Shown: piece by piece, positions 12,370-64,000 of the stretch
Position numbering within the stretch: position 1 is the stretch's first letter
Layout: each line of letters opens with the position of its first letter
Source of the DNA: Onchidella celtica
Lineage: Eukaryota; Mollusca; Gastropoda; Systellommatophora; Onchidiidae
Direction: 5' to 3'
Length of the DNA: 64,000 nucleotides
NCBI GenBank assembly: GCA_963931925.1
Contig: OZ007570.1
Coordinates: forward strand, 56,163,580 to 56,227,579
Position numbers and translations under genes: made by a program
The notes under the pieces: model-generated
The model's database searches: none
The model's input: only the letters and a program-made list of their open reading frames with translations
Told to the model about the DNA's origin: nothing

Positions 12370-12800
12370 CTCATAAAATTATGATGGCATTCATTCTGAT
12401 CCAGAACTGACGCTAATTCTGAGAAATCAAAGAGCGTGGCTATTGTGGAATTTTATTATCTGGAATAATGTGACTAGTAGCGACAGAGCTCGTTGTTGTT
12501 TTTTCTTCTAGAGAACGATGTACAAGAGATGACTTGGTTTGATCTGACCCGATTTAGAACTTGTGCTCATGCGGAGAAATTAAAAAATCGGAATAATTTT
12601 GGAAACGTGTGTTCTGGGAAAAGCGTGTTTAGTATCAACAGAACAAGTTCTTTGTAGAGAACCAAGTACAGTAGATGATGCAGGATTTGACCGGATCCAA
12701 TTTAGAACTGATGCTAATTCTGAGAAATCCAAAACTGAAAAACCCTTCTAAAAACATGTTTTGTATCAACATATAGAATACAGAGGATTGCTGATGCCTT
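12370..12800 (+). repeat. Diverged tandem units in the 5' leader of the GPCR
   Basis: The block 'gatc-gaactga.gctaattctgagaaatc' starts at about 12397, 12540 and 12695, each followed by A-rich sequence. The last two also share 'gtgtt...gtatcaaca'. They read as two to three diverged ~145-bp repeats ending just before the start codon. Confidence 0.5.
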
Positions 12801-12831
12801 CATTTTGCACTCGAACTTTCCAGACATTACA

Positions 12832-22490: not shown

Positions 22491-23042
22491 CGTAGCGAAA
22501 CCCTGCGTGAGAAATAAAACCCAAACGATACAAAGCAAACTAAAGAGAAGACAGAAAATGCTCAAATTTATGTAGCGAAACCCTGCGTGAGAAATAAAAC
22601 CCAAACGATACAAAGCAAACTAAAGAGAAGACAGAAAATGCTCAAATTTATGTAGCGAAACCCTGCGTGAGAAATAAAACCCAAACGATACAAAGCAAAC
22701 TAAAGAGAAGACAGAAAATGCTCAAATTTATGTAGCGAAACCCTGCGTGAGAAATAAAACCCAAACGATACAAAGCAAACTAGAGAGAAGACAGAAAATG
22801 CTCAAATTTATGTAGCGAAACCCTGCGTGAGAAATAAAACCCAAACGATACAAAGCAAACTAAAGAGAAGACAGAAAATGCTCAAATTTATGTAGCGAAA
22901 CCCTGCGTGAGAAATAAAACCCAAACGATACAAAGCAAACTAGAGAGAAGACAGAAAATGCTCAAATTTATGTAGCGAAACCCTGCGTGAGAAATAAAAC
23001 CCAAACGATACAAAGCAAACTAAAGAGAAGACAGAAAATGTG
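22491..23042. repeat. Seven-unit 80-bp tandem array
   Basis: Seven near-identical 80-bp units start at about 22493, 22573, 22653, 22733, 22813, 22893 and 22973 with 'tagcgaaaccctgcgtgag'. Units four and six carry 'tagagagaag' instead of 'taaagagaag', suggesting a two-unit step in the expansion. The unit head is the inverse of the 'ctcacgcgaggctttgcta' interspersed family. Confidence 0.95.
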
Positions 23043-25429: not shown

Positions 25430-25609
25430 CAATAACTGTGGGTTGGGATCCAGGGCAGCAACACCTGGCAGTGTTTTTCCTTCCAACAGTTCTAGAATAG
25501 CCCCACCCCCAGTGCTCACGTGGCTGATTTTATCAGCTGTTCCAAACTTCTTGCAGCACGTGGCAGTGTCTCCGCCGGCAACAATGGTCAGTGCTCCATT
25601 CTTTGTAGC
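25430..25609 (-). CDS. PGK: Tandem PGK gene, exon 16 (module 2 end)
   Basis: [35 protein letters not shown] and [21 protein letters not shown] replaces GGGDTAT. A perfect GTAAGT donor follows, in phase 0, so at least one more exon is expected downstream. Without splicing, 47 non-PGK residues would follow before a stop near 25288. Confidence 0.92.
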
Positions 25610-28600
25610 CTGCAATAGTCCACAGATAAAACTTCTACTAAAGCATAAAACTTCAACATCTCCAGCTCGTACTTTGGTTACTGTATTGTATGCACGCGAA
25701 TAAGTATGGCCGTGATCATGTTTGAGCTGGGAGGGGGTGGGGACATTTTTTAGGGGCATCAGCAGGCGAAAAAAAAAAATGCCCACGAAGAGAACCTAAA
25801 TGTCAAATATTCAGTGGCAAATTTGGCTGGTAAACCGCAATGTGATGAAGTTGATATTAACTTTTTCCGTTCTGGTCGCCTGTACAAGACCAGGTTAGCC
25901 TATATTACAGAAATGTGCCGTGATAAAGAGGCTTCTCCGGGGTAGCTTGACTTGAAGAAACCCCCCCCCCCCTCCCCCCGCAAAAAAAAAACCGCACACG
26001 CTCACAAATATGAGATATGCGATACACACGTTTAAGCAAATTACAATGTAGTTGAAGATCTATATTTTCAGGGGTTCTTGAGACAAGTCGTTTGTGTGGC
26101 TCTTGATAGCCCCCCGGTGTGGCCATGTTCTGCTGTAGTACCATAGGGAGGAAGACACAGAGAGAAAGGAAAGCGGAGAAAGGACCAAAGGCCTCGAGCA
26201 CAGTGAAGGCCCAGGTCCTGTTTTTCTAACAAGAGACGGGAAGGAAGGCGGGGTCGTCGGGTGTACGACTACTACTGCATCTATTATTTTTAATTTGAAA
26301 GGCTAGTCTCGGTTGTCCTTTAGGTGTGGTTAAATCCACTCCACATTATAATTGCTATTATTCTAGTTAATTAGTAAACAATATTTATTATTACTATACC
26401 GTTTTTAATCATAATAATGTCAATTTATTGCTTCACAAAGACAGTCTTATCAACTTTTAGAAATGACTTTCAGAACTTGGGATATACAGTGGATACACGC
26501 AAGCCAGCTGATATTTCTGATACATGACGACAAACCTCGACCACAGCATTCATCATAGCTTTAGTTCCAGCAAAGAAATTGTCCATCTCAAAGACACCGG
26601 GAGGCCCTTTCCAGATGATGGTCTTTGCTCTAGATATCACCTCGGCAAAATTGTCGCGGCTCTTCTCTCCGATATCCAGGCCCATCCATCCTGCAACAAT
26701 CGTTTGTTCTGTTTATCTAAATCAAATATACGTAGCTAGAAAGTAAATATTGGTATTTAAAGAAGTACGCATATGAAAAGGCATAAAAAGGTAGCATGCA
26801 GAAAGACAGAACAAGGGTTCAGACGAGCAGCAAAAGTAAAACATGGGATACTATATAATAATATCATGATTTTGATTAAAAGCTTAATGATATTACTATC
26901 AGTCTGCAGGAGGCTTGGGCTACATTATGAAAAGTAATTTTTTGCCAAATTGGTTAGGCGGTGATGGATGGCCTGGATATGGGCCTGACCCACACAGAGA
27001 GAAAGAAATCAAAGGCAAACCATTTGTTTAATGTTGTTTCTTTTTCTTTACAGATCTCCCAGTCTCGCATTTCCAAAACTTTTCAGGCCCTTCATTAACT
27101 ATGTAGCACTCTCATCAAAATGACATGCACTTCAACACTTATGTGTCATTGGTTATCATCTTTCGTTGTTTGTTTTTTTTTCTATTGTTGAAATGTCATC
27201 CAGCCAGCACTCCCTAGTCTGTCCGACTTAGATTTTTTTGGATGAGTTCCTTGGGATCAGTAGGATTACCGTATGGACGGATTTCCTACATCAAACCGGC
27301 GACTTTCCACGATTTCGTAACCATCTGATGTAGATCTACTAAAGAACGGTATCATTTCTGTTTGAGCAAACTTGAGGCCAGTCCTTTTCGTCAGATTGAC
27401 GTAAGGTTGCTGGCTAGGGTATATTTGCGATATACCCGCCGACCAGCACTGCACTGTGGCGACGACATGTCAGCTCCAGTTGTAACTGGGCTGCAATGAC
27501 ACTAACGCAAATTTCCCAAATGACATCAAAGTAGCAAACAAAATATAAAGTACGAAATATACATATTTACCTTCAGGAATACCAGATGACACATCTCCCG
27601 TTCCTGTGACCGCGTCATCCGAAAATTTATCCCCAGTAATGAAATCTTCTGGAAGGTGAAGCTGGACTCCATTCAAGTTAGCTTCCTTCACTAGATCCTG
27701 TACCAGCTCTGCTCCGTTCTCGTCAAACACTGAACTTCCTATTTTCATCCCGTGCTGAACTTTCAGAAATGTGAAAGCCATACCTGTCGCAGAGTTTTAG
27801 GTAAAAACGTACAGTAGCCTAAAAGTCAAATGATCAGCAAAACGAACCCCCCCCCCCCCCCTCCCCAAACCTGAAGTTTGTTTTCATTTTCGGTGGACAA
27901 AGAACAATATCCTAACCACTAAACATCAGTTAGACTACAACTTTGTATACGATCATATCCAGAACAGTGTGATAGTGACATCATTCTATAATAATCGTGG
28001 CAAAAAATGTAAATGTGTCCGGATTTCTCAAACTTTTGATTACAACATGGGAGGACAAGCACGTGCGCAAAAAGTGGGAGTGATCTATTGATGTGCTATG
28101 AGGAAATTGAGAAACCTGACTCCGTTTATTTTGGACATGACGATAGCTTTACATGGCAGTGGTTCTTAACCTTTGAAAATCTATTTTCCCTTACATTCAC
28201 GTCCCAGGTTTGATTCCGTGGATCCAGCACCCCTTACGAGGCAATTCTAGTCAATCAAATTAAACAACAGAAATTAAGTTGAACATCAGTAGAAATTGTT
28301 ATGCACAATCTCCAATGAGGAAAGTATACGCAAATGGCCCTCCATTACGCAATTGTACATGTCATGTAGTGTACAATATTCAAATATTTGGGTATTCTCA
28401 CCCCCCTTCCCAGGAAATCTTAAAACTGCCTCGGGTATTTCTCCTCGATTAAACGATTAAGGACCCTTGCTTTTACACAAATCCAGGAGACAGACAAAAA
28501 GTATCATAGCTTAAAGTGATAAATCACTACTATCTCAAACAGAGCCAAAATCTGTCTGAAATTGGTGAAAATCCTCCTGAAATATTTGATAGTGGCTAAA

Positions 28601-31600
28601 TTTCTCATCAGAGACAACCACCAATGGCAAGCAATGCAAAAAACATGAACTTGGCAATGACTGTAAACCTAAGAAAATGAAAACTATTTTCATTTCCACG
28701 CAGACATTTTCTAGAGTACATACCACCCCCTATGATCATTTCGTCAGCAATCTCTAGTAAGTTCTCAATGACTGGAATTTTGTCCATGACGTTTGCCCCG
28801 CCCAGTATGACCAGGAAAGGGCGCTCAGGTTTGCCCAGCGCTCTCTCAAAGAAGTTCAGTTCCTTCTTCATCAACATGCCACAGGCTTTCTCCTTCACCT
28901 GGATGCCCACCATGGAACTGTGGTCTCGGTGGGCCGTGCCGAGAGCGTCATTGACAAAGACATCCCCCAGCTGGCTCAGAGATTCTCTGAGAACAATGTC
29001 CACAACAAAGAAAAGAACTCAGGAAAAATAATTTGCATGATTCTGAGAAAAAAAAAATATGGAGTGTCTCAGGAAACAAAAGGTTTACATACATGAACTA
29101 TTTAATGCCGTTTGCAACTCTACTGAGCTGCGTTGTCATCAGTGCCTGGCCTAGAACTGCCATCTGCTTGAACACATGCAATAACCCAAATAAGAACGTA
29201 CCTGTCCTCTTTAATCTGAATTATAAATCGTGGATGTATTTTGATTGACACTGCATTAATAAATATTCGAAGTGTGTATATATATTTTTTAGACGCCGTA
29301 TATATAGTTGCCGTGAAAAACCGATACGGTAAGTCCAGACTATACGTTTTCGAAATTTTTGGACATGATGCTGGTAAAGGTGCATCACGTGATAAAACAT
29401 TAGGTTTTTTTCCCTTTTGTGCAAAGTTTACATATTGGACACACAGCAGTAAGAATTTCGGCCAGCAATATATAAATGATAAATGTAAGGAGGCATGACT
29501 ATTGATTATGAGCAATATGTCGATTAAGAAGAAAAAAAAAAACAATAGAAAAATAGTGCAATCCATGCAGTGAGCAGTTTGGATCTCAGGAGTATCCAGT
29601 ATTCTAGGTTGAGAAACTTAAGGATTTACACTGTTGCATTTATTTGATCTGTCTAATTCGGCCTTGGCCGATTCAGAATTTTTCAACATTGGCATATCCG
29701 TCTGGAAACAAGAAGGTTAGAATTTTATTGAGAGAACGGTCTACCTGAAGTTCTGCACCTGTTCGGGTGTGGCTTGGATCTTTTCCCCGTCTGGCCCTTT
29801 TCCTTTGCCTTCTTCCTCTATGTGAAACCTGAGATTTTCCAGTAAAATGACAGAGCCAGGCCAAGGGTCTCCACACATTTCTATTACGTCTTCTCCTACG
29901 CAGTCGTCCAGAAATGTAATTGGACGGCCCGACAGTTTTTCAAGCTCGTTGGCCACGGGTTTGAGTGAGTACAGCGGGTTTGGCTGGCCGCCTGGACGGC
30001 CCAGGTGGCTTATCAGTACCACCGCTTTGGCACCTCTGTTGATGACGTACTCGATGGTGGGAAGCGCAGCCACAATTTTTCTGTTATTGGTGATAACTCC
30101 ATTCTTCACAGGGACATTGAAGTCAGCCCGGATGATGACACGTTTGCCTGCAAGAGAACACTGGTCCACTTGGAGTTTGTTCAGCTCACCCTGCGCATGA
30201 ATGGAGGACGATATAAATTGTTACCAAAAAATGGAAGTAACAGTCAAAGCTAGTAGACCTGGTTTTCGCAAAGGTTGCAAAACGGAAAGCAAAAGATCTA
30301 GTTGTTCTGGCAATATGCAAAAAATAGCACAAGACTGGCAATGTTTACAATTAAATACACGTTGTCTTCAAGCAAAATTCTTCTAGTTTTTCAGAGTAAC
30401 TTGACTATTGGGGCAACACTGTGAAAATATTCCAGAATCTTTGAATGGGTGTAATGTCCCGACAGTCATGCAACTCGCGAGTGCAAACAACTTGACATTT
30501 GCAGAACCAATTGAAGTTCATTGTCATGAGAGCAGCCGTTGACTACAGAAATTGCACACGCAATCAAAATGAAAAGACAGACCGTAACTTGGAATGGACA
30601 CTGGTGGGTATTGAATGGGAAGAGGGCTGAGAGCAAGGTTAGAGAAGTTCAAAGAAAAACAAAAACGTTTTTTGCAGAGTCCTAAGGAAGTATGCAGACC
30701 AGGTAACATCCAGTTTTCCCCGTGTCCGTTAACTCTCGTAAGGCTCTGCCAGAACCTCATTATTTGACCTTTTACAGTAATAATATTTAATTTTGAATCT
30801 AATTACCACCCGGCCACCCAATGAAAATACTCTTTTTTAACCTTTTAATCTAGTTATTGCTAATTGACACCTACCTTCTTCCTGGGTCCTTTGGAGAGTA
30901 CATCAATGCCGGGCAGAATTTTACCCTCCAAGAGTTCTAGGCTAGCTCCACCTCCAGTGCTCACGTGGGTCACCTTGTTCTCTGCGTCAAACTTCTGGGC
31001 ACATGTGGCTGTGTCTCCTCCGCCAATGATCGTGGTAGCGCCTTTCAGAGTGGCCTGGACACAGTGAAAAGTAGATACAGCGTTATCTGATGCGGTATTC
31101 TTGCAGGCACACAAGGATGGGTAGGCTTGCAATAAGACGAATTCAACCATCACATACTCGCGAGTAGCTACCTTTAACATGTTCGTTCGAACAACTTCTT
31201 GTGACATTGTGTACTGTGACTGTGAGTTAAAGTTAAAAGTTAATGACCACGCAGGAGTAAAAACTAACATAACCTAACATTGGTCACCCATTAAACTGCA
31301 GTTTAGGTCAGTCCAAAGCGTAAACCCTGGTTAAATTATATCTGAATGTTAACAGCATTTTTTCAGTGTCTAGTACGATGCTAAGTTGAATACCACAGGT
31401 GGGGAGGGGGGGGGGGAAGAAACATTGTTCTCATGCGTACACACCAGCACAATGGCGTCCATCATAGCTCTGCTTCCACTGGCAAAATCATCCCATTCAA
31501 ACACCCCCGGTGGACCGTTCCAGACAATGGTTTTAGCCCTGGAAATCACCTCAGCAAACAATTCGTTGGTTTTCTCTCCAACATCCAAGCCGATCATGCC

Positions 31601-32103
31601 TGGCAGTAAAGACAACTGTTTTGTAGTGATGACAATGATGAAGCTTTTATCAGAAACAAAATTAAGTGAAAAGTTAAGTGTCATGTCCGACCTAATATGT
31701 TAATTCACTTTCATAAACTGGTGTTGACATTTTCACAGATTATGTTACAAAACTGATATGAAATTGTCTCATAAGTTTGGCCGAATTTGATAACGCTGCT
31801 CCTGCTAAGTTGCGATGACGGAATGAGACAATGATGAGAATGACGAATCAAGATGATGATAGTGATGACATGTCCCCGCTTCAGTGATTATCAAACGGGA
31901 AGCACTTGGCTACCGGAGGAGGAATTTCAGATCTAATGGTCAGAACTTTAGCCGGTGTTAGATTTCGGAGAGAAATGTCATCAGAGGACGTAGTCCGAAC
32001 TGAGAAAGAGTGTACCCTGCACACTGTACATATTTATCAAATGAAATACCGACATACACAACTATAAGGGCGTTGACAATTTACTGGTTCACACAAAAAC
32101 AAA

Positions 32104-32146
<43 letters not shown>

Positions 32147-35100
32147 GCTTCAGATTGAATCCCATTTGGAACTATTCAATTACTACTGTTTGAAGAACAT
32201 GCTCATGTTAATTTGATGCTCTGGTGGCATTTGATAACTTTTCTTTTACAAGTTCAAGTTTATAATAGGCTCTCTGAGGGTTAATTTTAAAAATTCAACA
32301 CGCATGTACACGCACAAACACACACTCACACACACGCACGCACACGCACAATTTTGATATCAAGAAAATAACCTGAGCTCGGCCATCCACTCTCTCCGTT
32401 CCTTGCTGCCTTGACCAGTTTCAACATTTGAATGCACTCAACAAATTAATTATAACTAAATTTGTAAACGTTAAGTTCTATAAAGCACCGGTCATTCAGT
32501 ACTATTTCTCATTTTCACCGCCCCCCCCCCCCCAAATTATTTGGTAATTCAAAATGGTGGGAGGAATTGAGGAAACTTGGGATGGCAAAGGAAGGAATGC
32601 GGCATGGAGCTCCGAGAACCACTGCTCTACATGTTTACATTTTCACAACTTTTACTCTCAGATGTCCTCCTCTCTTGCGTAAATGGCCACGGTAGCAGTT
32701 CAAAGGATGACGTTTTGCTCATGTTACCCCCCCCCCAACCCCCCACCCCCCCCCCCACCCCCCGACGACTGTGACAATATAGACGATAAGGACAGTGAGA
32801 ATGCCAAGCAAAACATCATCGTAAAACAGTGTATGCTGATCACCAACCTTCAGGAATCCCGTCGTCCATATGAACCTTCCCCGAATAGGCATTCTCGGCA
32901 TACTTATCAGCCACTATAAAATCCACAGGTAATTGTATGGATACGTGACTTTGTATGGCTTTGTCCATAAGGTCGGGCACCATCTCAGCTCCTTCTTTGT
33001 CAAACCAGGAGTCTCCAATGGGCATATCATGCAGCACCTGTATTGCGTATTACGTACAGAGGCCTTCGTTGTTGAGGCATGCAATGGGCATTGAGCAGAT
33101 TATAACTAATACAGGTAAGCAAACTTAGCTCAAAGTGCATATTATTCTTGTTTGTTTGGTTGTTTGTTTTTTTTGGCCCTCTTTACAATCTATTTTATTT
33201 TTCAGCTTTCCCATGAAAGTCCTCAACTCAGCAGTTCTTTTGGCTTTAACATTGAAACAACAAATTTAGTTCCATAGCACCACCTTTTAGTCTTCTAGTG
33301 CCCATTATTCCATTGCGGAAACGTTTCACATGGTGTCCAATGTTCTATTTTTAAAAAAAAACTTTCTAATTTATCAAGAAACATTTGATTATAGCGTATA
33401 TTTTTTCCCAGTATATTTGGACTCATCTGACCATTTTAAATCAGTGTTGCAAGATTCGGACTTGTTGACCAAGGGAAAACATGTCTGAGCACCAGAGGGT
33501 TAATTAGTCGTGGACGAGTTTCAAAGCCGTTGTTATGGAAACAGTTTACCTTCAGAAAGGTGAAGGCCATTCCTCCTCCAATTATCATTTCGTCCACTTT
33601 GTCCAAGAGATTTTCAATCAGCAAAATCTTGTCCGAGACTTTGGCTCCTCCTAGTATGGCCAAGTAGGGCCTGGTCGGGTTTTCTAGAACCTTCGAGAAA
33701 CTTTCCACCTCTTTCTTCATCAGCAAACCTGTGGTTCAACACAATAAAAAGATTTTGCTGCTGGACCAAGACAAACCGTTCAGAAAGACGGTAACAATCT
33801 GAGATTGTATTTATCGAAACAAAGATACAGGTCAGGGAATGAAATCCTGGCGCACTTTTTGTCTGCATTTAACAGAATTGCGTTTTATGGACGCACGTTT
33901 TTTGTTATTTTTTTTTAATTCTGACTAAATTCGTACACACGAATATTTGTTCTAAATTTGGCACCAAGAGCTCGTGTCCCACCTGCCTTACTTTAGTTAC
34001 ACCCTGGAATCAGACGCACTTACGCGTCCTCTCTACATTAATTTCAGCGTGTTCGTTTATCCTTTAATTCGTCGTTCTTTTATTCGAGAAGTTATGAAAT
34101 AAACTATTATTGGCCTACTCACCACAAGCTCTCTGCCGCAATGCACATCCAACAACTGAGCTATGAGCCCTGTGAGCTGTGCCAAATGCATCATTCACGT
34201 ATATGTCTCCCAGACGAGACAGGGACGCTCTGAACTCTTCGATTTGTTCCGGTGTTGCTGAAACTTTCTGTCCAGATTCATTCAAGCCGTTTCCTTCTTC
34301 TTCCACGTGAAATCTGAACGGAATAATGAAGAACACCAGATCACGTGCGAGCTGCTTTAATCTACAATACTATATTTCATGTATTATAGCTACGTTCCAA
34401 TCAAGGGAAATGATTCTGAATGCAAATAGTCTATCTGACACCTACCTTTTAACTTTAACTCCCTACCTAAAAGCAAGAGGTCACAACTCTCATAGACCAG
34501 ATGCAGCAATGGATGGCGCTCATTTTAAAGGACTTATGTGTCAACTACCTAATCCCAGAACCGAAGATGTGAATATTCAAAACCTACAAATGGTATTATC
34601 GTGACAAAAGCACTGTCTTGCGAGATGCACGCTGTTCATTTTTCGCACAGTAAATATTTCCAGTTTTCTGAATTCTGTTACGATAATGGTAATAATAACT
34701 GTCACCCTGTAGAATCTGTGTAGAATCAGTAAGGCAATTTCAGTGCTTTGTGTGAAAGTCTAGAATTAATCCACTTGTAATAATCACGTCAGGTTTGACA
34801 GAAAAGTGTTTCAGACGTTACAATGAAAACGAATTCATTAAAAGTACCGTAGATTCTCCAAGAGTATGACACTGCCAGGGATAGGATCAGCACAAGCTTG
34901 TTCTGTCTCAGGGCCCACACAATCTTCCAGAAAGACGACCGGTGCCCTCTTCAGTAGCTTCTTTAGTTCATTCGCTACAGGCTTCAAACTGAAGTCGGGT
35001 CTGACCTGGCCGTCTGGACGGCCCAGATGGCTCATCAGAATCACACATTTGGCGCCTGGGGGGGGGGGGGGGTGAGGCGTTGTTATGATTATTAATCAAT

Positions 35101-35998
35101 TTCCATCTTTAGTTTAAAGAATGCTGAAGTGTTACAGCCATATATATTTATTATACTGACATGTACATCTCCCGGCTCCACCACCTATGAATCCCGTCTC
35201 TGCAAAGACTTACTTACAAGAAACAGTACGTGCGCCACATTCTAAATTGATGTCCACTGACTGATTTTGTTTGGGCTAATTAAAATCTGTTATTCACATC
35301 TACAAGAGTTAGATATTAATTTGTCGTCTTAGATAATCATCTCTTCCGAAGAAGATCTCCTGCAGTATCGCACTCCTTAAGAGTTTCCTTTTTTTTTTTC
35401 TTTTTAACAACAACAACAACAAAGACTGACAACTCACCTTTTTCTAGCGCATATTTTATGGTTGGAACGGAAGCTTCAATTCTCTGTGTGCTAGTGATCA
35501 CGCCTTTCTTCATGGGAACGTTAAAGTCTACTCTCATAAGGACGCGTTTCTCGGCCAGATGACATTGGTCAATGCACAGTTTACTAGTTAGATTCAGCTG
35601 AAAATGACAGTAATAATGCTTCACGAGACAGTTTTCTTTTGGGCACTTCTCTTTGTCAGATTCAGGTGACAAACGGCGTCATAGATCTTTGAGCATTTGT
35701 TTTACTGGACACTTTAGTGAATGTATAGTTTGCCTGTCAGATTCAACAGAAAATGGTATGGCAAAGATTGCACTTCATGAGATGATTTTTGTTCATCCCT
35801 CTATTACCTATCTTTAAATTGGCTGTTCAAGAAATTATGGGTAACTGACCAATAATTCTGAAATGAAATGATCGAGGAAACTCACACGTTAATAAAGTGA
35901 GGGAGAGGGAAAGGGAGAAAGAGAGCGAGGGAGAGAAAAAGACAGAGGGTAGGGATAGACAAAGAGAGAGCGCGACTGAGGGAGAGAGAGAAAAAGAG

Positions 35999-36041
<43 letters not shown>

Positions 36042-36116
36042 CAAAGGGGAAAAGAGAGATGGGGGAGAGAGAAACACACACGCACGCGCGCACACAAACA
36101 CTTACACATACACACA

Positions 36117-36154
<38 letters not shown>

Positions 36155-39100
36155 CAAAGGGAAAAAGAGAGATGGGAGAGAGAGAAACACACACGCACGC
36201 GCGCACACAAACACTCACACATACACACACAAAGAGAGAGAGAGAGAGAGCGACAAAGGGGAAAAGAGAGATGGGGGAGAGAGAAACACACACGCACGCG
36301 CGCACACAAACACACACACATACACACACAAAAAGAGAGAGAGAGAGAGAGAGAGAAAGTTCTTGAACGAATATCCACTATGGCTATGCAATCTCCTGAC
36401 AACTTTCGCTCACAGTTCGTTGAGGTCTTTCCGTTTCCGACTCAGCCGTCTTGAGTGGAGGAAGTGGAGGTTCTGTATCCGTTGGTTCTTCATCTTCTTC
36501 TTCCACGATTGACTCCATCCGTCCAGATGACGCAATGGAAAGTTTTTCTTCTAGTTCTGGGCCGTCTGTTTCACCTACTGATGGCAACCAAAAAAAAAAT
36601 GGGCCGGGCATTGTTGTTTTTCTCAACTGTGTAATGTGTTGTGTAGGCCTACAAGACAATTAGAACCATTGTATCAAATATAAAAACCACAGAGGGAAAC
36701 CAGCGAGTATGTATGTATAGAGAGGTTTCACTATTGGTCGATTTGCACTGCGAGACACGGGAGGCGCCGCGAAACCACTGTTAGCATGGAGCGGAAAGTA
36801 GGTCACTGCGGTAAACAGTGTCCGTTTGTGCATTTCCGCGGGATATAAGAGATTACAAACGGCTGTAAATAGTTTCAATCTACCCATAAATATGGACAAA
36901 CCACAGTAAACAGATATGCACACTATCTTTGGTGAAAATGGTCTTTTTCAATTCTTTAATTTCTAGTTTACCGCAGCGACCTAGTTTCGCGATTTGGCGG
37001 AAGTGAGATCTCTCTGTAAATACATAATCTCCGGTGAAACTTAACCACATTCACACAAATATGAAACTGACAACATCGGTATTTAAAGTATAAAAGTCCA
37101 TTACTACCCTCATGCAACTGAAATGGTGGTTTCTAATATTTTGTTATCACCGCACTTTTCCCAAATTTTGGTTTCGCAGAGACCATTCTGATGAACCAAG
37201 TCTTGGTACAAAGGGGGATACAAGTGACCATCACTTTTCATGTCTGTGGAAGTTTTTCTCGTGTGGTTTCCATATACCTTTTTTTCTTTAAAAGTGTGTG
37301 TGGGGGGGGGGGGTCGGGGGGGGGCGGGGTGGCAAGTCATTATGTTTAAGTTACATTTTTTATTATTTCCTTATTTCTAAGTGTTACAGCCAAGTGCCAA
37401 ACTACGAGCAACCAGCAAACCAGTATAAATTTGATTACTTATATGATAGTCATCTTTCCCGACAGTCATAGGGAAGGCTAGTCGTGTACTGCGTGCGTCA
37501 AGTCTGTTTAGAGTCGGCTTTCGACTCAGATTTGAAATTCCTGTGAATCCACCTGCGAGATAGACTCGTGCGCCAGGTCGTGTTTTAACTCCATAATCCA
37601 CGAAAACTGAGGCAAAACTAAACTTGACTCACTGCGCCATGGGCCTGATACTTTGGTCTTTTTTCCTTCAGTATTTTAGACATGTTACAGTAGTGTTTCC
37701 CAACCTTTATTGTGCGCCCTACTTCAATTTTTTTTTTAATGCTCCTTATGGGAGGGGGGGGGGTGCTAGCCTCTCAATAGTCTCATGCCGAAGGTACCGA
37801 GTTCGAAATTCCGGTCTGTGCAGGCGTGTAGGAATTTTGGGATTTTTCTCATATTTTCCTGTCTCTGATCTTATGGTGGGTAGGATCGAGCGTCCAATCT
37901 AGTCTTCTCGGATGAGGACGGAAAAATTCGCAGGGCCCGTGTGCACGTCGCGCACGTTAAAAATACCTTGGCAGTTGGAAATCGAAAAGAGCAGGCCAAA
38001 CAGGCCGCTGCCCGGGCAAAATTCGAAAAAAAACGAATCCCTACCACAACATTTGGAAGGATAGAGGCACACCAACGGACCTCAAAGTGAACATACTTAA
38101 GTGCTTGATCTGGCCAGTCCTACTATATGGTTGTGAAGCCTGGACACTCAAAAAGGCAGACATAACAAGATTGGAGGCAGCTGAAATGTGGCTTTACAGA
38201 AGGCTACTCAGAATAAGTTGGACAGAAAGGAGAACAAATACAAGCATCTTAGAACAGCTTGGCACCACCAGAAGAATAACACCTGAAATAAATAAAAGAA
38301 GACTTGCATACATCGGCCACGCGGCCCGAAACAAAAGCACGGCCCTTATGATATCAATCCTTCAAGGAAAGACAGAAACAAAGAGAAAACAAGGAAGACC
38401 ACCCATTACATATCACGATAACATCAAGAAAGTCAGCCAGCTGGAAATAAGTGAACTAACTAGGAAAGCTAAGGACAGGATTGGGTGGAGGAGATTTTGT
38501 CGTGACATCCACTGTAGCAGCTAACATCGATGACGATGAAGCCGACAGGTGACAGGTGACCACAACAAGAAAGGGTGAGGTGTAAATGCCAGGGCAGCGA
38601 ACCGCCTAAAATAAAGACCTAAACACAACGTGCTCCTTACCGGACAAAGAGTGCATCTATTAAGTTCAATGTTATAATCCGAGCCAAACAAGGAAAGAAC
38701 CAACACGACATAAACAAACAACGGTTTATTTATAGAGTTACGTTAAAATACACAATGATAAGATATCTACGAATAAAATCCCTTCGCACCAATCAGAAGC
38801 CCAAGCCCCACCAAAATGTTGCCACGCCCCAGCGGTATATTGGGCAGGCGGCGTGATTTTTTTTTTCGTACTCACTTTACCAAATTCAGGAGCGGGGCAG
38901 CAACACACCCCCAAACACAGGTCATCGGCTAAGGGATTTCTCGTCCTACCGAACACTGCCATGGGTGCTGCAATCTCTGGACTGTGCATCCTAATCCTAG
39001 CCCTAAAATGACTCTGAATGTCACCAGAAATCCCTGGGGAGAAGGTGGTCTAGAGGCAAGGTGCTCGCCTCTCGTGCCAAGGGTCCCGGGTTCGAAACCC

Positions 39101-42100
39101 GGGCTGTGCAGGCATGTTGGAAATTGGGATTTTTCTCATATTTTCGTGTCCCTGATCCAACTGAGGGGTAGGATCGAGTACCTAGTCTCCTCGGATAAGG
39201 ACGAAAAAATTCGGAGGGCGCCCGTGTGCACGTTGCGCACGTTAAAGATAACTTGGCAGTTGGAAATCGTAAAGAGCAGGCCGAACAGGCCGCTGCCCGG
39301 GCAAAATTAAATTAAAATTCATCCCTCCCAGTCCCTCCCCCTCCCCCCTCATCTCCCCCCCCCCCTCAAAAAAAAAACCGCCGACCGGCGCTGCACTGTG
39401 GCGACGACGTGCCTGCTCCAGTTATAACTGGGCTGCAATGGCACAAAGGCAAATTTCCCAAATGGGATTAAAGAGTTATACAAATACAAATACAAATACA
39501 AATAATATGTTGGAGCTGCTGCTGTCCCGCTCCTGAATTTGGTAAAGTGAGTACGGAAAAAAAAATCACGCGGGCCGGCGCGTGCCCCATCTTGAGAAAT
39601 ATCGAGTTAAAGGAATCCTGATATAGATGACTGAACGCTGTTTGCAGTGTTAAATATCGTCTTTTACCGTCATCTGCATTGTTGGTTGTGGCGTTGTTAC
39701 CCCCGTCAGTGTCAACTGTTGCCCCGGTTTCCACTGGTTTCTTTACTGAACTGGTACCCAAAGTGTTCAAATCCTCATCCGAATTCTGTTTGTTGAGGAA
39801 CATTAATAGTATATTGTGTGCCTACGTATGGAGACATGTGTTATATTTTGCCCTATTGGCTGACTTAACCTTTTCCACCATAGCACATCTACCTACAAGT
39901 TACAATTGGCCATCGTTCAAAATAAAAAACATATGAACTGCAAGCTAGATAGTTAAGCTGGATTTCCATGTGTAAAGACACGGAAACGGCAGCAGACACG
40001 TCAAAAACCATTCAAGCAGTGAAACAGGCCGTTCCCGTACACTTCCGTACACATAGAAACACTCTTACTATTTACTACTTGATGGATTTTTGACGTTTCC
40101 ATTCCGTACACATGGAAACTCAGCCTTATTCTTCAAATCGGAATACTGCTCATGTTGTGCTTGAAAAGGTTAAAATATCCACGATGTTGTTATTTAAGAA
40201 TCTTTCTTTGCCAAATGAATGCTGTCAGTGTTAGGTAGATACAATGGCTTTGAACAATCTATTATGTAAATATTATACATAACGATTGTGATATTTTATA
40301 CAGAAGTCTATTATACTGAGGGCCTCTCACTTGCACCGCTATCTTGAGACAACTTGTTACTACCCCTCTCTTTCATTGAACATTAGATCACAACTTTATA
40401 TTTTCTGTCTAATTTGAATGAAAAGCGATGGCATGCTGTAAGCTGCTGTGGGGTAACAAAAGGGATATGACGAAGGGATCATTAACGACGATGACAGCGA
40501 TTGTGATGATATTAATTAATGTTGATGGAGAAATCTGTTAATGGTAATGAGACTGATGCCTTCTATTTAAAGTAATGTGATGAAGAGGATGCACACAATC
40601 ATTAACGAGAGTGATGATGGCGATGATAATGCGTCTGAGTTTGAGTTTGGAGAAAGCACGTCGACGCATATAGCGATGAAATTGTGCTAGGAAAAAGCAG
40701 GATGATAGAAAGAATGTAACAGTAATACAGTGGTAGATCAGAATGTAATACTAACACAGTGATAGGTCAGAATGTAACAGTAATACAATGATAGGTCAGA
40801 ATGTAACAGTAATACAATGATAGGTCAGAATGTAACAGTAATACAGTGATAGGTCAGAATGTAACAGTAATACAGTGATAGATCAGAATGTAACACTAAC
40901 ACAGTGATAGGTCAGAATGTGACAGTAATACAGTGATAGGTCAGAATGTAACAGTAATACAGTGATAGGTCAGAATGTAACAGTAATACAGTGATAGGTC
41001 AGGGGGAGACCCTACCAGAAGGTAATGCTAAATTAGCGTAATGATAAAATCAGCCATCGGTGATACGGCCCCCCCCCGCCCCCCATACACACACAAATTA
41101 ACAAATTAACTCTTTGTGTGCCAATAGCCGATGAATCGGTTCTCCCGATGGTCACGTTTGTGCCAATCACCAATGCAACGGTGCACAAGAATGCCAGGCT
41201 AATTTTGTTTCAGGAAGAAAGAAAGTTGCCTTTCTATTCATAAATGTTGCTGTAGTTGGTCTTCATTCATCTCCCTCACGATTTTTCATCCTATGTTGGT
41301 GAAAGTAGAAACATTCATGGCACACAAAGAGTTTGAAAAAAGAAAAACATGAAAAAATAAACTGAAGAACTTTTAATCTTTGACATGACTGCGAGTCAAG
41401 CAACATCCAGTTTCATCAGATTACCGTGTCAGCATCCTCAAAACCGCCATCACTGTACGAATCGTTATCATCCTCGCTGTCTCTATCTCCTTCCTCCTCC
41501 TCCTCCTCCTCATCATCATCAAAGTCATCCTCGTACACCTCATCGACGCTTAGGCTTTTGTCACCCTCGTTGCCCTTATCTTTGGTGTCGTAATTCTCGC
41601 CTTTGTCGATGTTGTCGTCGTCGCTGAGAAACCAGTCCTCCGTGTCGATGTCGGTACTCTGTTCCCCCAACATCTTTCCGCAGTCCTCCGAGTCGTCCGA
41701 CACTGTAGAGATGCTGGCAGATCCTTGGGTGAGAATTTTTACAGATGTCATTGTGTTAGTGACAGTCGAGGGCGATGTTTTCATGCAAACCATCAGGCGA
41801 CACCCCCCTCAAATTGCTATTACCAGTACTATTACATTTATTATCATCATCATTATTATCATGATCATCATCATCATCGTCGTTGTCGTCGTCATCATCA
41901 TACTCGTTATCATCAACATCATCATCGTTCCCTTATTGTTCCCATTGGGTTAATCATAGCAAGTGAAATGGATTTTAGTTTTATTTCATTGTTTCGCTAG
42001 ACTGAATTCTAATGTCCCGAGACTACGCCCAAATTTGTACTATCTGCAGCAGCCACTGAACCTTGATTTGACAGGTGTCTGAAAATATCTTTCGCATTTC

Positions 42101-42424
42101 TCACTCGCCCTAAAATGCATTGGGCACCTCCTCACTCTCAGTCAGTGGAAAGGATACATTGTCGTAATCTCGTTTTAAACAGACAAATAGACATTGTGTC
42201 ATCGGCGAAGCCACCATTGTGACCATCACTGCTGACACAGTATCAACCAAGATTTAGATTCAGAACCCACCTTTCTGCATCCACTCTTCCTCGCCACTTT
42301 GCCCAGAAAGTGTGCTGTTGTTGAAGTGGACATGAGCGGACCGGTGACTGTCCTCTTTCTTGTGAGAGTCCTCTTTTTCTTGCGGCACCGATGAAAGGTG
42401 CCCGCCGAGTGTGTTGTCTTCCAT
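25430..42424 (-). CDS. PGK: Tandem (two-module) phosphoglycerate kinase with acidic N-terminal extension; 16 exons, 3' end open
   Basis: PGK transfers phosphate between 1,3-bisphosphoglycerate and ADP in glycolysis. I joined 16 minus-strand exons, each bounded by AG and GT, with reading phase agreeing at every junction. They give about 245 residues of acidic leader, 421 of module 1 and 419 of module 2, in one frame (about 1,085). Human PGK1 is 417. Module 1 has no Met at its start and its last codon is followed by a splice donor, not a stop. Module 2's first exon starts in matching phase 0 and also lacks a start ATG. Module 1 keeps [37 protein letters not shown] and GGGDTAT. Module 2 has [23 protein letters not shown] and AGGDTAT, so it is probably weak or inactive. 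Alternative: two adjacent genes with missing ends. RNA reads across 31-30 kb would decide. Confidence 0.85.
26536..26690 (-). CDS. PGK: Tandem PGK gene, exon 15
   Basis: [20 protein letters not shown] and [24 protein letters not shown] replaces WNGP (human N336) and VFEM replaces VFEW. 155 nt, as in module 1. Donor GTTTGT, phase 0. Confidence 0.95.
26691..27436. other. PGK intron 14; no other gene
   Basis: Holds words shared in inverted order with 20383-20475 ('cagtaggattaccgta', 'cctacatcaaac', 'gattgacgtaaggttgctggct'), so a dispersed repeat is present. Confidence 0.5.
27437..27548 (+). mobile_element. SINE 3'-domain fragment in PGK intron 14
   Basis: 'cactgcactgtggcgacgaca', 'cagctccagttgtaactgggc' and 'gcaaatttcccaaatg' match the 3' domain of SINE copies B and D. 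The tRNA-like head is absent. It lies 22 bp from the donor of exon 14. Confidence 0.8.
27571..27783 (-). CDS. PGK: Tandem PGK gene, exon 14
   Basis: [31 protein letters not shown] and SSGIPEG. Ends at donor GTAAAT, only about 22 bp from the 3' tail of a SINE fragment (27437-27548). The EG|G intron position matches module 1. Confidence 0.95.
27784..28723. other. PGK intron 13
   Basis: Contains C14 at about 27847-27860 and a hAT-like terminal word 'cagtggttcttaacctttg' at 28157 followed by 'caccccttacgaggcaattctag', probably a degenerate hAT MITE. Confidence 0.45.
28724..28986 (-). CDS. PGK: Tandem PGK gene, exon 13
   Basis: [20 protein letters not shown], then DHSSMVG, and [17 protein letters not shown]. 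The Lys at the human K215 position is Asn; the next Lys (K219) stays. TAHRDHSS has Asp where Ala is usual. Donor GTATGT. Confidence 0.95.
28987..29744. other. PGK intron 12
   Basis: AT-rich, with short spurious ORFs on both strands. No RNA or protein gene recognised. Confidence 0.55.
29745..30190 (-). CDS. PGK: Tandem PGK gene, exon 12 (module 2 start)
   Basis: Begins [18 protein letters not shown], in phase with exon 11, with no Met before DFNVP. It covers in one exon what module 1 splits over three. Keeps SHLGRPGG and [18 protein letters not shown] replaces NNQRI, putting Lys at the human R38 position. Donor GTAGAC, phase 2. Confidence 0.95.
30875..31054 (-). CDS. PGK: Tandem PGK gene, exon 11 (module 1 end, no stop)
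   Basis: [30 protein letters not shown] and [14 protein letters not shown]. Where single PGKs stop soon after the LPG.D.L motif, this exon runs into a GTAGGT donor in phase 0. The KGPRKK end may be the start of a basic linker. Confidence 0.93.
31445..31599 (-). CDS. PGK: Tandem PGK gene, exon 10
   Basis: [20 protein letters not shown] and [20 protein letters not shown]; the WNGP Asn (human N336) and the Glu of VFE are present. The phase 0 exit matches the homologous intron of module 2; both exons are 155 nt. Confidence 0.95.
31600..32847. other. PGK intron 9
   Basis: Contains (CA)n at 32108-32141, further CA-rich sequence at 32300-32352, C14 near 32520-32533, a hAT-like terminus (inverse of 'gagcagtggttctcggagctcc') at about 32609-32634, and a C-rich tract at 32727-32763. 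Confidence 0.6.
32848..33037 (-). CDS. PGK: Tandem PGK gene, exon 9
   Basis: [31 protein letters not shown] and DDGIPEG; the C-domain segment of PGK. Donor GTTGGT. Confidence 0.93.
33550..33728 (-). CDS. PGK: Tandem PGK gene, exon 8
   Basis: [15 protein letters not shown] keeps both nucleotide-side lysines (human K215 and K219). [15 protein letters not shown] ends the exon in phase 0 before donor GTAAAC. Confidence 0.95.
34123..34313 (-). CDS. PGK: Tandem PGK gene, exon 7
   Basis: [29 protein letters not shown] and [12 protein letters not shown] of FRASL and HR of TAHRAHSS are the conserved basic-patch residues. Donor GTGAGT. Confidence 0.95.
34848..35055 (-). CDS. PGK: Tandem PGK gene, exon 6
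   Basis: [12 protein letters not shown] (phosphoglycerate-binding SHLGRP), [13 protein letters not shown] and SVILLENLR. The acceptor's pyrimidine tract is a pure C15 run on the coding strand (G15 at 35058-35072 on +). Donor GTACTT is weak. Confidence 0.95.
35438..35597 (-). CDS. PGK: Tandem PGK gene, exon 5 (module 1 start)
   Basis: [14 protein letters not shown], then [14 protein letters not shown] and [17 protein letters not shown]. Contains the substrate-side DFNVP and the conserved Arg of TQRI (human R38 position). Donor GTGAGT. Confidence 0.95.
35598..36413. repeat. PGK intron 4 with GA/CA-rich tandem array
   Basis: About 35895-36358 is GA-rich and contains three 99-113 bp units ('gcgacaaaggg-aaaagagag', 'gagagaaacacacacgcac', 'acacatacacacacaaa') starting near 36038, 36151 and 36250. 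The long ORFs on both strands come from the simple sequence. Confidence 0.9.
36414..36577 (-). CDS. PGK: Tandem PGK gene, exon 4
   Basis: [18 protein letters not shown], then [20 protein letters not shown], then [10 protein letters not shown]. Acidic with a short proline-rich stretch. Donor GTGAGC leaves phase 0, exactly what module 1 needs. The acceptor is a tandem CAGTAG (NAGNAG), so 36577 or 36574; both keep the frame and differ by one residue. Confidence 0.78.
36711..37023. mobile_element. MITE-like TIR element in PGK intron 3
   Basis: The left end 'gtatgtatagagaggtttcac' is the imperfect inverse of the right end 'gtgagatctctctgtaaatac'. Internal words 'aggtcactgcggtaaac' and 'gtttaccgcagcgacct' are also inverse. 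About 313 bp, no ORF; possibly Tc1/mariner-related, but the target duplication is not clear. Confidence 0.55.
37487..37640. repeat. 'gcgtcaagtctg' TIR-element family, copy 3
   Basis: Starts 'actgcgtgcgtcaagtctgttt' and ends 'aaactaaacttgactcactgcg', a clear inverted pair. The interior has 'ttttaactccataatccac'. About 154 bp; the best preserved copy in the window. Confidence 0.65.
37760..38026 (+). mobile_element. tRNA-derived SINE, copy C (3' domain absent)
   Basis: Degenerate head with B box 'gagttcgaaattcc', then the usual body to 'ctgcccgggcaaaattcg'. The 3' domain is missing, and LINE ORF2 sequence follows directly. Confidence 0.8.
38027..38524 (+). mobile_element. 5'-truncated LINE ORF2 fragment (thumb/C-terminus)
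   Basis: An intact frame of about 160 residues: [17 protein letters not shown] (typical end of a LINE RT), [61 protein letters not shown], stop at 38522. Same broad class as the tail at 50520-50880, but a different family. Catalytic RT motifs are absent. Confidence 0.88.
38851..39571. mobile_element. Element with ~55-bp TIRs, interrupted by SINE copy D
   Basis: Left arm 38851-38915 ('gcgtgattttt...cgtactcactttaccaaattcaggagc') pairs with right arm about 39515-39571. The interior, 38935-39035, matches in reverse a copy at 44339-44462. In that copy 'acatattacagggattt' is contiguous, whereas here SINE D sits between those halves. Confidence 0.75.
39036..39504 (+). mobile_element. tRNA-derived SINE, copy D (full length)
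   Basis: Best head in the window: 'ggtggtctagaggcaagg' (A region) and 'gggttcgaaaccc' (B box), then body, C-rich segment, 3' domain 'cgctgcactgtggcgacgacgtgc' and an (ACAAAT)n tail. Nested in the 38851-39571 element. Confidence 0.9.
39668..39785 (-). CDS. PGK: Tandem PGK gene, exon 3
   Basis: [25 protein letters not shown] and NNADDG; acidic and polar, no domain. Acceptor AACAG, donor GTAAAA, 118 nt, entering in phase 0 and leaving in phase 1. Confidence 0.7.
39786..41424. repeat. PGK intron 2; 29-bp minisatellite at 40712-41001
   Basis: About ten copies of a 29-bp unit ('gaatgtaacagtaatacagt' core) sit inside a copy of the dispersed 'gagtttgagtttgg...gagaccctaccagaag' repeat, splitting its ends (40640-40711 and 41002-41030). 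No gene in the rest of the intron. Confidence 0.85.
41425..41723 (-). CDS. PGK: Tandem PGK gene, exon 2 (acidic)
   Basis: Asp/Glu-dominated: [13 protein letters not shown], a run of [12 protein letters not shown], and [10 protein letters not shown]. No fold expected, so likely disordered. Donor GTAATC at the left end, phase 0. The acceptor is either CCCAAG (used here) or CTACAG giving 41702; both keep the frame. Confidence 0.72.
42271..42424 (-). CDS. PGK: Tandem PGK gene, exon 1 (start)
   Basis: Starts at the ATG whose first base is 42424 (context gaaATGG), the first Met after an in-frame stop at 42479-42481. Encodes 51 residues ([12 protein letters not shown]..., Glu/Lys/His/Ser-rich) plus one base, ending at a strong GTGGGT donor. 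An out-of-frame ATG with good context (gccATGG) lies 11 bases upstream and opens an overlapping frame. The promoter was not identified. Confidence 0.7.
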
Positions 42425-53300: not shown

Positions 53301-56300
53301 TATTTTTGTTTAGATTGTGCCGTTCTATCTTCCTCGTTGTTTTAGGAAGACGTTTCTCTTGTCCTTCTTCTCCCTATCTGTAGATACGTTCTTTTTTTTC
53401 AGACTCTGTTCTTGTTTGTACCGTGTAGTATAATCGGCGTAGTAGGTTGCAGTTTTTTCCATTATAGTTTTTTTTGTAGAAGCTGTCCTAGTCTGGTTCG
53501 TTGTCCCTGACGTACTTGTGGTCTTTCTACTAAATTTCCTTATTCTTGTCTTTTCTATTCTTTTTATAATTAATAGTGCATACATTTTATAGATATAGAA
53601 TTAGTTTTGCTGTAAAGGTAAATTTCTGAATTGTATTCTGAATTGGGTATTGTTATATCTGGTGTGGTCTTAGGTCTCTGGTCGTGTTGCTAGTGATCAT
53701 ACCGACAGGTTGGTCGTCTTATAATAGATACCATAACCATAAATCTGTGAAATGGCGGAACTCCAACAACTAATGAAGTTGGGTAAGGAACTTGGCCTGG
53801 AGGGAGAAGAGCTACGCGGCTGGATTAAAGAACAGCAGGCAGAATTGCGCGATGAGCGTGCTAAGGATAGAGAGCAGGAAAAAGAGGCTCAGGAAAAGGA
53901 AAGAGAGGCTAAGGCTCAGGAGCAGGAAAGGGAGTTAAAGTTAAAGGAGATAGAAGCCCAAGAGCGGGAGATAGAGGCTAGGGATAAGCAACAGGAGAGA
54001 GAGGCGCGAATAAGAATCGCCGAGTTGGAAATCAAAAAGAATGCGCCAACAGAAACAGTTGAGCGGCAGGTACACAATAAGGGTGGCGTTAGGATTAAGC
54101 TCCCTACGTTCGACGACCGGAAGGACGACATAGACGCCTTCCTTTACAGGTTCGAACTGAACGCACAATTGCAATGGGGGGAAAATAAGGAATTATGGGC
54201 CACGTACCTGGCATCGCTATTGCAGGGGCGAGCGTTAACCTACTTTAAAGAGCTACAGCGCGAAGACGTGCAAGATTACGATAAGCTGAAGGCTTTGCTG
54301 CTTCGCCGATTTGCGCGTACCGAGGAATATTTCCGGGAGCAGTTTAGGCGAGCACGTGCAGATACCAGGGAGGACTTTGCTGCCTTCGTCGCGAGACTAA
54401 CTGAGTATTTCGCGAACTGGGTAGACTTGGCGCATGTGGGCACGGATTTTACTAAACTGAAAGACTTAATGATCCGTGACCAGCTGTACGCGTCGTGCCA
54501 CAAAGATCTGGTGGCTTTCCTGAAAGAGAACGAACCCGCGACGGTGCAGGAGGCGTCTAAGTTGGCGGAGGCATACCGTACGGCGCATCCGTCCAAACCA
54601 GTCGCCAGGGCGTACGTCCAAGATGCTGGGTACGTCGCCGTTGTCGAGGGGTCGCCGGCAGGACTTGGGGACAGGTCGCGTCAGCGTGGTGCCTATAGCG
54701 GGCAAGCCCAGGGGCAGCGTAGGGGATATCACCAACCACCGGCATATGGATCCGGTAAGTTTGACCGAGCAGGAGGGCTAGGTCGCGGTAATGGCCGGGG
54801 GCGAGTTGTGACCTTTGCCGATGACCGACGGCATAGGGACTCTAGTTCCGGTCGCGAGGGGTCACGGGGACCCAGGCCTAGGGCAGCACAGGGAGCGGAG
54901 TGTTGGACTTGCGGACGCGTGGGTCACTTTTCGCGCGAGTGTAGGGCCGCGAAGTGTTGGAACTGCGGAAGAGCAGATCACATCAGCGTGAATTGCCCTG
55001 CAGGTAGGATAGCGGCGAACGTGGACAGTAGCTCCAGTCCATGTTCCCCAAATAAATTTCATCATGCGGCTGCGTGTGTTACATCGGACAACGGAGGCGG
55101 ACAGTATTCTAAGTGTCCCAGTTGTGAGAAGTTATTATCTTCCGGTGTTTTACCTTGTGGGGGAAAGATCCCCGTTATAAATTCATGTCATACAGGAGGT
55201 GGTCTTAGGGTTTATCCGGGGTTTGTTGGGGACGAACCGGTCTCGGTTTTACGAGATACAGGATCTACCGTTGTGGGAGTGCATAGGGACTGCATTCGGG
55301 ATTCACAGCTTACAGGTGAGACTGTCCCGTGCATCCAATTTTCGGGGGCCATTGAGAAATTACCCATGGCAAAAATAATGATAGATACACCTTTCCTTAG
55401 CGGGGAAGTCGAAGCAGTCGTTGGTTGTTTTCCAGGCGCCCAGCTCATCATTGGGAATGTATCCCGGGTAGGTTCCCCTTCCGATGAGAACGTGCAAGCA
55501 TGGTCGCAATCAAAAGGTATTGACTTTTGCGCCGCGGTCGAAACACGTCGACGGGTAGCGGATAAAGATAAGATTAGACCTTTGGCGACGCCAGCGGTCA
55601 ACCTAGATATCACGCCAGAGCGCTTGGCGAGGTTACAAAGGGAGGATCCATCGTTAGACCAATGTTTTGGGGAAGCGCGAACCGAGAAAACGAGGAAATA
55701 TAGGAACGGGTCATCTTCTTTTTTTGTCCAGGGGGGCATTCTGTTCCGTATGTACGTCACAGTGGCTTCCGTTCAAAAGCAGGTCGTCGTGCCACGGTCG
55801 TTAATTGCTACAGTATGGCGTCTGGCCCATGATGTTCCATTAGCGGATCATATGGGAAGTGCTAGAATCAAGCAGAGAATTCTGAAAGATTTTTATTGGC
55901 CGTCAGTATACAGAGATGTACGTTTATATTGTAAGACGTGCAGTGCGTGCCAAAAGACGACGCATAAGGGTCGTTCACCCCAGGCTCCTCGTCAAAAGAT
56001 CCCCACGGTTTCGGAACCGTTTAAAAAGGTTTCAGTACCTTGTTGATTTAAGAGAAAGACTATCTTCAGCGCGCACTATAGCAGAAGAAGCTTCTGGTAT
56101 CGCTTCGAAAAGAGCAAAAGACTATAAAGATAGAGGTTCCAAACTGAGAATTTTTAAGCCAGGAGACAAGGTTCTGTTGTTGTTACCTACGGACCATAAT
56201 AAGTTATTGATGACATGGAAAGGTCCTTATGTTATTGAGCGAGTTGTTTCAAAGGTAGATTACGCTATCCACATTGATGGAACGAGTAAGGTTTTCCATG

Positions 56301-63068: not shown

Positions 63069-64000
63069 CTTTGACTGACAGCTTCTCTCGTGGCTTATTC
63101 TACCAATGTTTGACCCGAGAGTGCGATGGCAGTGATTGCAGGTCAGTCTTTTGGGTTCACTTTGGCGAGTGTTTTCATTCCGCCTCTGTCGTTTTGTCAG
63201 GTATGTTTCTTTTGCCTTGAAGTCTATTGCGAGCGTGCCACTGCGCAATTTTTGTCTCCATCTGCTTCGATCACTTGCAAGGTTCTCCCATTCATTGGGG
63301 TCGATGTTGAATGCTTTCATCGTGACCTTGCAAGTGTCTTTGAATCGCAGATGTGGCCTACCTCTGGGTCGGTTGCCAGTAGCAAGTTCCCCGTAGAGAA
63401 TTTGTCTGGGGATGCGATCATTTTCCATACGGTGGAGATGTCCAAGCCACCGCAGTCTTTTTTTTGCCTAGGAGAGCCTGAGTTGATGGAATGTTGGCTC
63501 GGCTCAGAACTTCGATATTTGAGATCCTGTCTTGCCACTTGATCTTGAGAATTTTGCGTAGGCAGCGCAGGTGGAAGGAGTTGAGGGATCTTTCATGTTT
63601 GGAGTAGGTGGTCCATGTCTCTGAGCCATACAGCAGGGTGCTTAGGACGCAAGTTTGGTACACGAGTACCTTTGTTTTGATGGTCAGCTTGCTATTGTTC
63701 CACACCCTTTTTGAGAGTTTGCCAAAAGCTGTGGCCGCCTTTCCTATTCTGGCATTTATTTCAGTTGTTATGTCTGTGCTACCACTGATGGTTGAGCCTA
63801 GGTAGCAGAATTTTCCCACTTGCTCCAGAGGAGAGCCATTCAGCATGATTGGGTTGGAGTTTCTCAAGCCTTGTGTCAAAACTACAGTTTTTGAGACACT
63901 GATCTTTAGCATGAATTTGTCACAGGCTTTGGCAAGGCTATTGATGAGAGCCTGGAGCGTGGTTTCATCGTGGGCCACGATTGCAGCATCATCTGCGAAG
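63069..64000 (-). mobile_element. LINE ORF2 (RT and C-terminal zinc finger), running off the right edge
   Basis: At the edge the minus frame reads FADDAAIVAHDETT, the RT catalytic FADD motif. It continues through KFCYLGSTISGSTDITTEIN, YQTCVLSTLLYGSETWT and LRCLRKILKIKWQDR. The frame changes near an A8 run at about 63459-63466, then continues MENDRIPRQILYGELATGN, RPRGRPHLRFKD and ends with a Cys/His cluster (CNHCHRTLG...HERSC) and a stop near 63066. Probably recently inserted but inactivated; located in an SLC22 intron. Confidence 0.9.

Follow-up and report, generated by a model that had tools for sequence, protein, structure and literature searches.

The 64,000-nt stretch of the Onchidella celtica genome analyzed here (contig OZ007570.1, positions 56,163,580 to 56,227,579; hereafter the window) carries on its minus strand, from 42424 to 25430, a gene predicted to encode two phosphoglycerate kinase (PGK) modules in one chain behind a long acidic N-terminal extension. 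PGK is usually taken to be a single-module monomer. Sixteen exons joined through AG/GT borders in consistent phase give 1,085 codons without a stop, against 55.8 stops expected at the stop density of the gene's own introns, and a pseudogene was ruled out on this count. The extension (735 nt), module 1 (1,263 nt) and module 2 (1,257 nt) are each divisible by three. The Pfam PGK family (PF00162) matches the conceptual protein in two stretches, with 957.2 bits for the whole protein against a cut-off of 27, and no other Pfam family was found in it at E <= 0.001; the closest solved relatives of module 1 and of module 2 are PGK1 chains. When the gene was rebuilt, the exons, borders, phases and module lengths given in a preliminary description of the locus proved correct, as did its long acidic extension, which comprises 245 residues, 78 of them Asp or Glu, with an isoelectric point (pI) of 4.05.

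The extension occupies the first four exons, all exons being on the minus strand. Exon 1 (42271–42424) opens with the start ATG at 42424, which is preceded by in-frame stops, and ends in consistent phase at the donor GTGGGT; exon 2 (41425–41723) contributes a poly-D/E stretch and is followed by exon 3 (39668–39785) and exon 4 (36414–36577), the latter ending in RPQRT, comparable to the RPKRT that precedes module 1 in Lymnaea stagnalis. Module 1 starts in exon 5 (35438–35597; DFNVP) and continues through exon 6 (34848–35055; HLGRP), exon 7 (34123–34313), exon 8 (33550–33728; GGAKVSDK, with K216 and K220 retained), exon 9 (32848–33037) and exon 10 (31445–31599; WNGPPGVFE) to exon 11 (30875–31054; GGGDTATC), which ends at a donor. 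Module 2 starts at the acceptor of exon 12 (29745–30190), which supplies no ATG, and runs through exon 13 (28724–28986; GGANVMDK, with K216N), exon 14 (27571–27783), exon 15 (26536–26690), which carries N337K, and exon 16 (25430–25609). As the last border of exon 16 is itself a donor (GTAAGT), the gene extends past 25430. A putative seventeenth and last exon at 24794–24762, reading AEMIWCWSFL and a stop, is a plausible guess at the 3' end of the gene, made from splice signal and phase.

To place this gene among its relatives, we turned to a protein search covering proteins of 597–1,899 residues, in which 7,994 candidates were scored and 5,881 matched. Among the 120 matches listed, most of them nameless, five tandem PGKs bear the name of an animal, and all five are from heterobranch gastropods. 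Identity and coverage of the searched part are 70% and 100% for Lymnaea stagnalis (P0001), 63% and 100% for Physella acuta (P0002), 52% and 100% for Bulinus truncatus (P0005), 60% and 79% for Biomphalaria glabrata (P0007), whose model is cut short in module 2, and 51% and 65% for Elysia chlorotica (P0033), whose model is more degraded. Like the window protein, all five gene models combine an N-terminal extension with two PGK modules. The pI of the extension is 4.05–4.13 in the window protein, Lymnaea, Bulinus, Biomphalaria and Elysia, and the Physella extension is less acidic (pI 5.05). For the Lymnaea protein, structure prediction from a 13-sequence alignment gives a predicted local distance difference test score (pLDDT) below 50 for residues 1–152 and mostly around 90 for both modules; the predicted template modeling score (pTM) is 0.56, so the relative placement of the two modules is not fixed by the model. 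The relatives also depart from the window protein: active sites are intact in both modules of Lymnaea, both modules are degraded in Elysia and Bulinus, and P0002 and P0033 carry after module 2 a C-terminal tail that is rich in lysine and leads to a motif, common to both, ending in KYTG, which a pattern search of the minus strand from 25430 downstream to the window's end did not find.

Two near-full PGK domains were present in 124 of the 129 proteins examined for domains (the 120 listed and nine chosen from a second search), the exceptions being P0007, P0030, P0033, P0034 and P0042. Named two-domain PGKs outside the snails comprise two bacterial entries (Bacteroidales and Marinilabiliales) and four plant entries, while P0006 and P0035 have identical halves and look like assembly doubling. 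Many of the two-domain proteins look bacterial, and many of about 794 residues have diverged modules. Three of these (P0061 from Bacteroidales, P0092 from Marinilabiliales, and P0008) resemble the window protein in holding two full domains in one chain, their modules being 64–76% identical within each protein, but they have no extension, since the first domain starts at residue 3, and are 40–41% identical to the window protein; we infer that such bacterial-type proteins arose independently of the snail tandem PGK. A hookworm entry (Ancylostoma caninum P0164, 585 residues) was rejected as a tandem PGK, as it repeats a part of its own PGK nearly letter for letter and is probably a model or assembly error. 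The preliminary description had noted that no animal tandem PGK was known to be described. This agrees with searches of the open-licence PubMed Central (PMC) literature, whose listings showed no publication to the point, but not with the databases, where tandem entries are present and those of Lymnaea and Bulinus are already named PGK; a further qualification is the frequency of two PGK domains among other, mostly nameless proteins. These results fit an animal tandem PGK that is unpublished in the literature searched, but whose sequences already stand in databases under general names.

The junction between the modules bears on whether this is one gene or two. Read past its donor, module 1 yields VGVN and then a stop in intron 11. 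Reading back from the start of module 2, a stop is reached after 10 open codons, none of them an ATG; the first methionine of module 2 is residue 105 of the module. The preliminary description had module 1 ending at a donor instead of a stop and module 2 beginning at an acceptor without a start, proposed a fused protein of at least about 1,085 residues, and named a separate start for module 2 among the observations that would overturn it. Its reading of the junction stands: no such start was found upstream, and the fusion is supported by the same layout in the other gastropod gene models. Two adjacent single-module PGK genes could have been wrongly joined by a reader or a gene caller, since the merging of neighbors is a known gene-caller risk; the four named plant two-module entries (P0044, P0051, P0056 and P0110; modules 78–87% identical) may be such merges, the hookworm entry duplicates part of its own PGK, and retention of intron 11 would end module 1 four codons on. 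However, module 2 has no start of its own, and the same junction is spanned by the Lymnaea, Physella, Bulinus and Biomphalaria models, for which reasons we reject merged neighbors as highly improbable. A real fused tandem PGK is supported by the genomic sequence together with the gene models of relatives.

Compared with ordinary animal PGK1 (PF00162), the window protein has the same fold and module length, with identities to human PGK1 of 65% for module 1 and 61% for module 2, but it differs in having two modules per chain and the acidic extension. Active sites were compared at 21 positions, chosen to represent the ligand-site residues of PGK1. Module 1 equals human PGK1 at all 21, as do module 1 of Physella and Biomphalaria and 21 of the 22 non-human canonical PGK rows (the exception being Candidula). 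Module 2 agrees at 17 of 21, the differences being R39K, K216N, N337K and S399I, and it retains D24, N26, H63, R66, R123 and R171, the remaining 3-phosphoglycerate-site residues tabulated. More than four positions differ in module 2 of Physella and Biomphalaria, in both modules of Bulinus and Elysia, and in three rows of the type found at a second locus (on contig C13) described below. R38, K215 and K219 (numbered without the initial Met) are described as offsetting the charge of the transferring phosphate (PMC6040698; PMC5594045), and with the R38M mutation turnover falls to 7.2e-6 per s, from 89.8 (PMC6040698). Two of these three residues are missing from module 2. As R38M nearly abolishes turnover, module 2 is predicted to be dead or very weak, and in the window protein it is probably inactive or a poor enzyme. 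Module 1 looks fully working.

A scan of the 1.14-Gb assembly (43 contigs) located further PGK loci. A separate canonical PGK on contig C7 was modeled in 12 exons, and the named proteins most identical to it are the PGKs of six heterobranch entries (86–89%, that of Elysia at 89%). Contig C13, at about 42.741–42.841 Mb (L013–L015, L020–L022 and the sequence between), carries THEG repeats and, behind them, a string of degenerate PGK modules, at least four over roughly 100 kb. Complete modules were recovered for B (317 bits) and C (302.5 bits), the models of A and D are rough or partial, and the THEG repeats (PF14912) upstream of module A score 53.4 bits against a cut-off of 27. The locus is collinear with the THEG-PGK protein P0155 of Physella (THEG 40.8 bits) and is possibly one very large gene, a single protein being supported, through the Physella model, solely for THEG, module A and the start of module B. 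THEG repeats distinguish P0155 and the C13 locus from the window protein.

Two trees were built to trace the origin of the modules. In the first (38 rows), module 1 of the window, Lymnaea, Physella, Bulinus and Biomphalaria forms one clade (99/99). The second (28 rows) omits the fast rows C13_B, C13_C, PhysTHEG_A, Ely_M1, Ely_M2, Phys_M2, Bul_M2, Biom_M2, Candidula and Bul_M1. It recovers a module 1 clade of the window and three species (100/99), a module 2 clade of the window and Lymnaea (100/99; the other module 2 rows were left out) and a clade of nine canonical heterobranch PGKs (100/100). Because these three clades are joined at 96/94, the tandem family would have arisen within or near the heterobranchs, and because modules 1 and 2 of the window and Lymnaea form separate clades, both modules would predate the split between these lineages. 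In BLAST comparisons, module 2 of Physella and of Bulinus scores best against Lymnaea module 2.

Intron positions, expressed as human residue and phase and judged against random placement, offer a second view of this history. Modules 1 and 2 share 310/1 and 361/0, two exact matches among six and four positions (P ~0.0001), as would be expected if a single module with introns had been duplicated in tandem. Between the C13 and tandem modules 3 of 16 positions match (P ~0.0001, with approximate C13 models): module 1 shares 187/1 with C13_C and 246/0 with C13_B, and module 2 shares 151/2 with C13_C. None of the 11 modeled introns of the canonical C7 gene falls at a position of either tandem module, and we therefore considered an origin by retroposition, as for the testis-specific mammalian retrogene PGK2, which is likewise an additional PGK copy that lacks the intron positions of the main gene (PMC3449122). 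PGK2 is however intronless and single-module, whereas the window gene has introns of its own. The absence of shared positions is also the outcome expected 93% of the time under random placement, and C13_B shares 22/2 with the canonical gene (P 0.13); a retrogene is thus one possible origin of the tandem gene.

Taken as a whole, we consider it probable that the locus encodes a tandem PGK of about 1,095 residues (1,085 read directly, the last ten from the putative exon 17), one module live and the other crippled, which originated by duplication in or near the heterobranchs and would serve as a placed source of ATP. A single gene would produce a single protein made of a disordered acidic extension, an intact PGK module, a short linker and a catalytically crippled second module of PGK fold. 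PGK would have been duplicated and then have undergone an in-frame tandem duplication, the ordinary PGK gene persisting beside it. Module 1 would make ATP from 1,3-bisphosphoglycerate, and module 2 together with the extension may place or regulate module 1, so as to provide a fixed ATP source. Because a paralogue carries THEG repeats, the sperm flagellum is proposed as the likeliest site of action, a tentative assignment to which the THEG and degenerate PGK locus gives a weak hint, together with the three intron positions that the C13 modules share with module 1 or 2. THEG is a spermatid-expressed protein (PMC8850557), and one study cited there reported normal spermatogenesis in mice without it. 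PGK in Ciona is described as located mainly in sperm flagella and not in branchial cilia (PMC4427456), and in trypanosomes an N-terminal insertion targets arginine kinase 3 to the flagellum (PMC4517888). The THEG link, these two cases and mammalian PGK2 suggest the sperm tail as the site to examine first. In a Biomphalaria infection transcriptome, PGK genes fall early in trematode infection, like sperm-tail genes (PMC11184841); these genes could not be matched to the present one and are not used as evidence. A more speculative extension, which we hold to be doubtful, is that heterobranchs made PGK a structural repeat of the sperm axoneme, in a family reaching from the tandem gene here to the THEG-repeat protein with at least four degenerate PGK modules, where a live module would supply ATP on site and dead modules would act as building blocks.

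Several results weigh against parts of this explanation. In Lymnaea module 2 all 21 positions are intact, so a dead second module is no general trait of the family, and module 1 is degraded too in Bulinus and Elysia. R39K preserves the positive charge, and a measured effect of this substitution was not found in a literature search or in passages of PMC6040698 and PMC5594045. The six module 2 rows group together in 0% of 200 bootstrap trees of the first tree and the six module 1 rows in 32%; Elysia module 1 and most module 2 rows, which are fast-evolving with long branches, have no stable position there. Holding modules 1 and 2 together as sisters in the second tree gives a p-AU (approximately unbiased test) of 0.485, and the best BLAST score of Elysia module 2 is to Bulinus module 1, not to a module 2. 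The intron shared by C13_B and the canonical gene and the lack of a THEG (PF14912) match in the window protein belong here as well, the latter bearing on the flagellar site. Within a real fusion, module 2 could instead be a decaying leftover without function; it is the less conserved module between window and Lymnaea (66.5% identity, against 74.2% for module 1), and active-site residues have been lost from it in the window, Physella, Bulinus and Biomphalaria. We regard this as unlikely, since module 2 of the window retains a complete PGK domain with no stop in it and with regular splice sites, and those of Physella and Bulinus give near-full-length PGK matches, the Biomphalaria model being cut short. 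Less likely still is that both modules are active and the fusion doubles activity, like tandem phosphagen kinases. The intact positions of Lymnaea in both modules favor this, and the comparison with phosphagen kinases in the preliminary description implied two working enzymes, but R39K, K216N and N337K, with the loss of two of the three charge-balancing residues, speak against it for the window protein.

If the live and crippled tandem PGK is placed as proposed, it would join other fused kinases. The sea urchin flagellum contains a three-domain creatine kinase and adenylate kinase, both fused multi-domain kinases, and fused phosphagen kinases are another route of local ATP supply for sperm. 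Like these, the window protein repeats kinase modules within a single chain and would supply ATP locally, but they belong to other enzyme families, and its placement in the flagellum is a guess. Should the THEG paralogue mark the site of action, the snail gene would be one more animal rebuild of local sperm ATP supply, beside PGK2. The fused pair, with the second active site lost in the window and Physella but kept in Lymnaea, would also provide a natural series from a glycolytic enzyme to a pseudoenzyme or scaffold.

Other features of the window were noted beside the tandem gene. Downstream of it, at 22492–23040, lies an 80-bp unit repeated 6.9 times with 99% matches, and a 29-bp array occurs in intron 3 (40711–41002). 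By eye, reverse-transcriptase-like remnants were recognized at 37961–38521 (+) and 63421–63999 (-), gag- and pol-like retroelement frames at 53743–57876 (+), and an open frame resembling a seven-transmembrane receptor at 12739–14397 (+).

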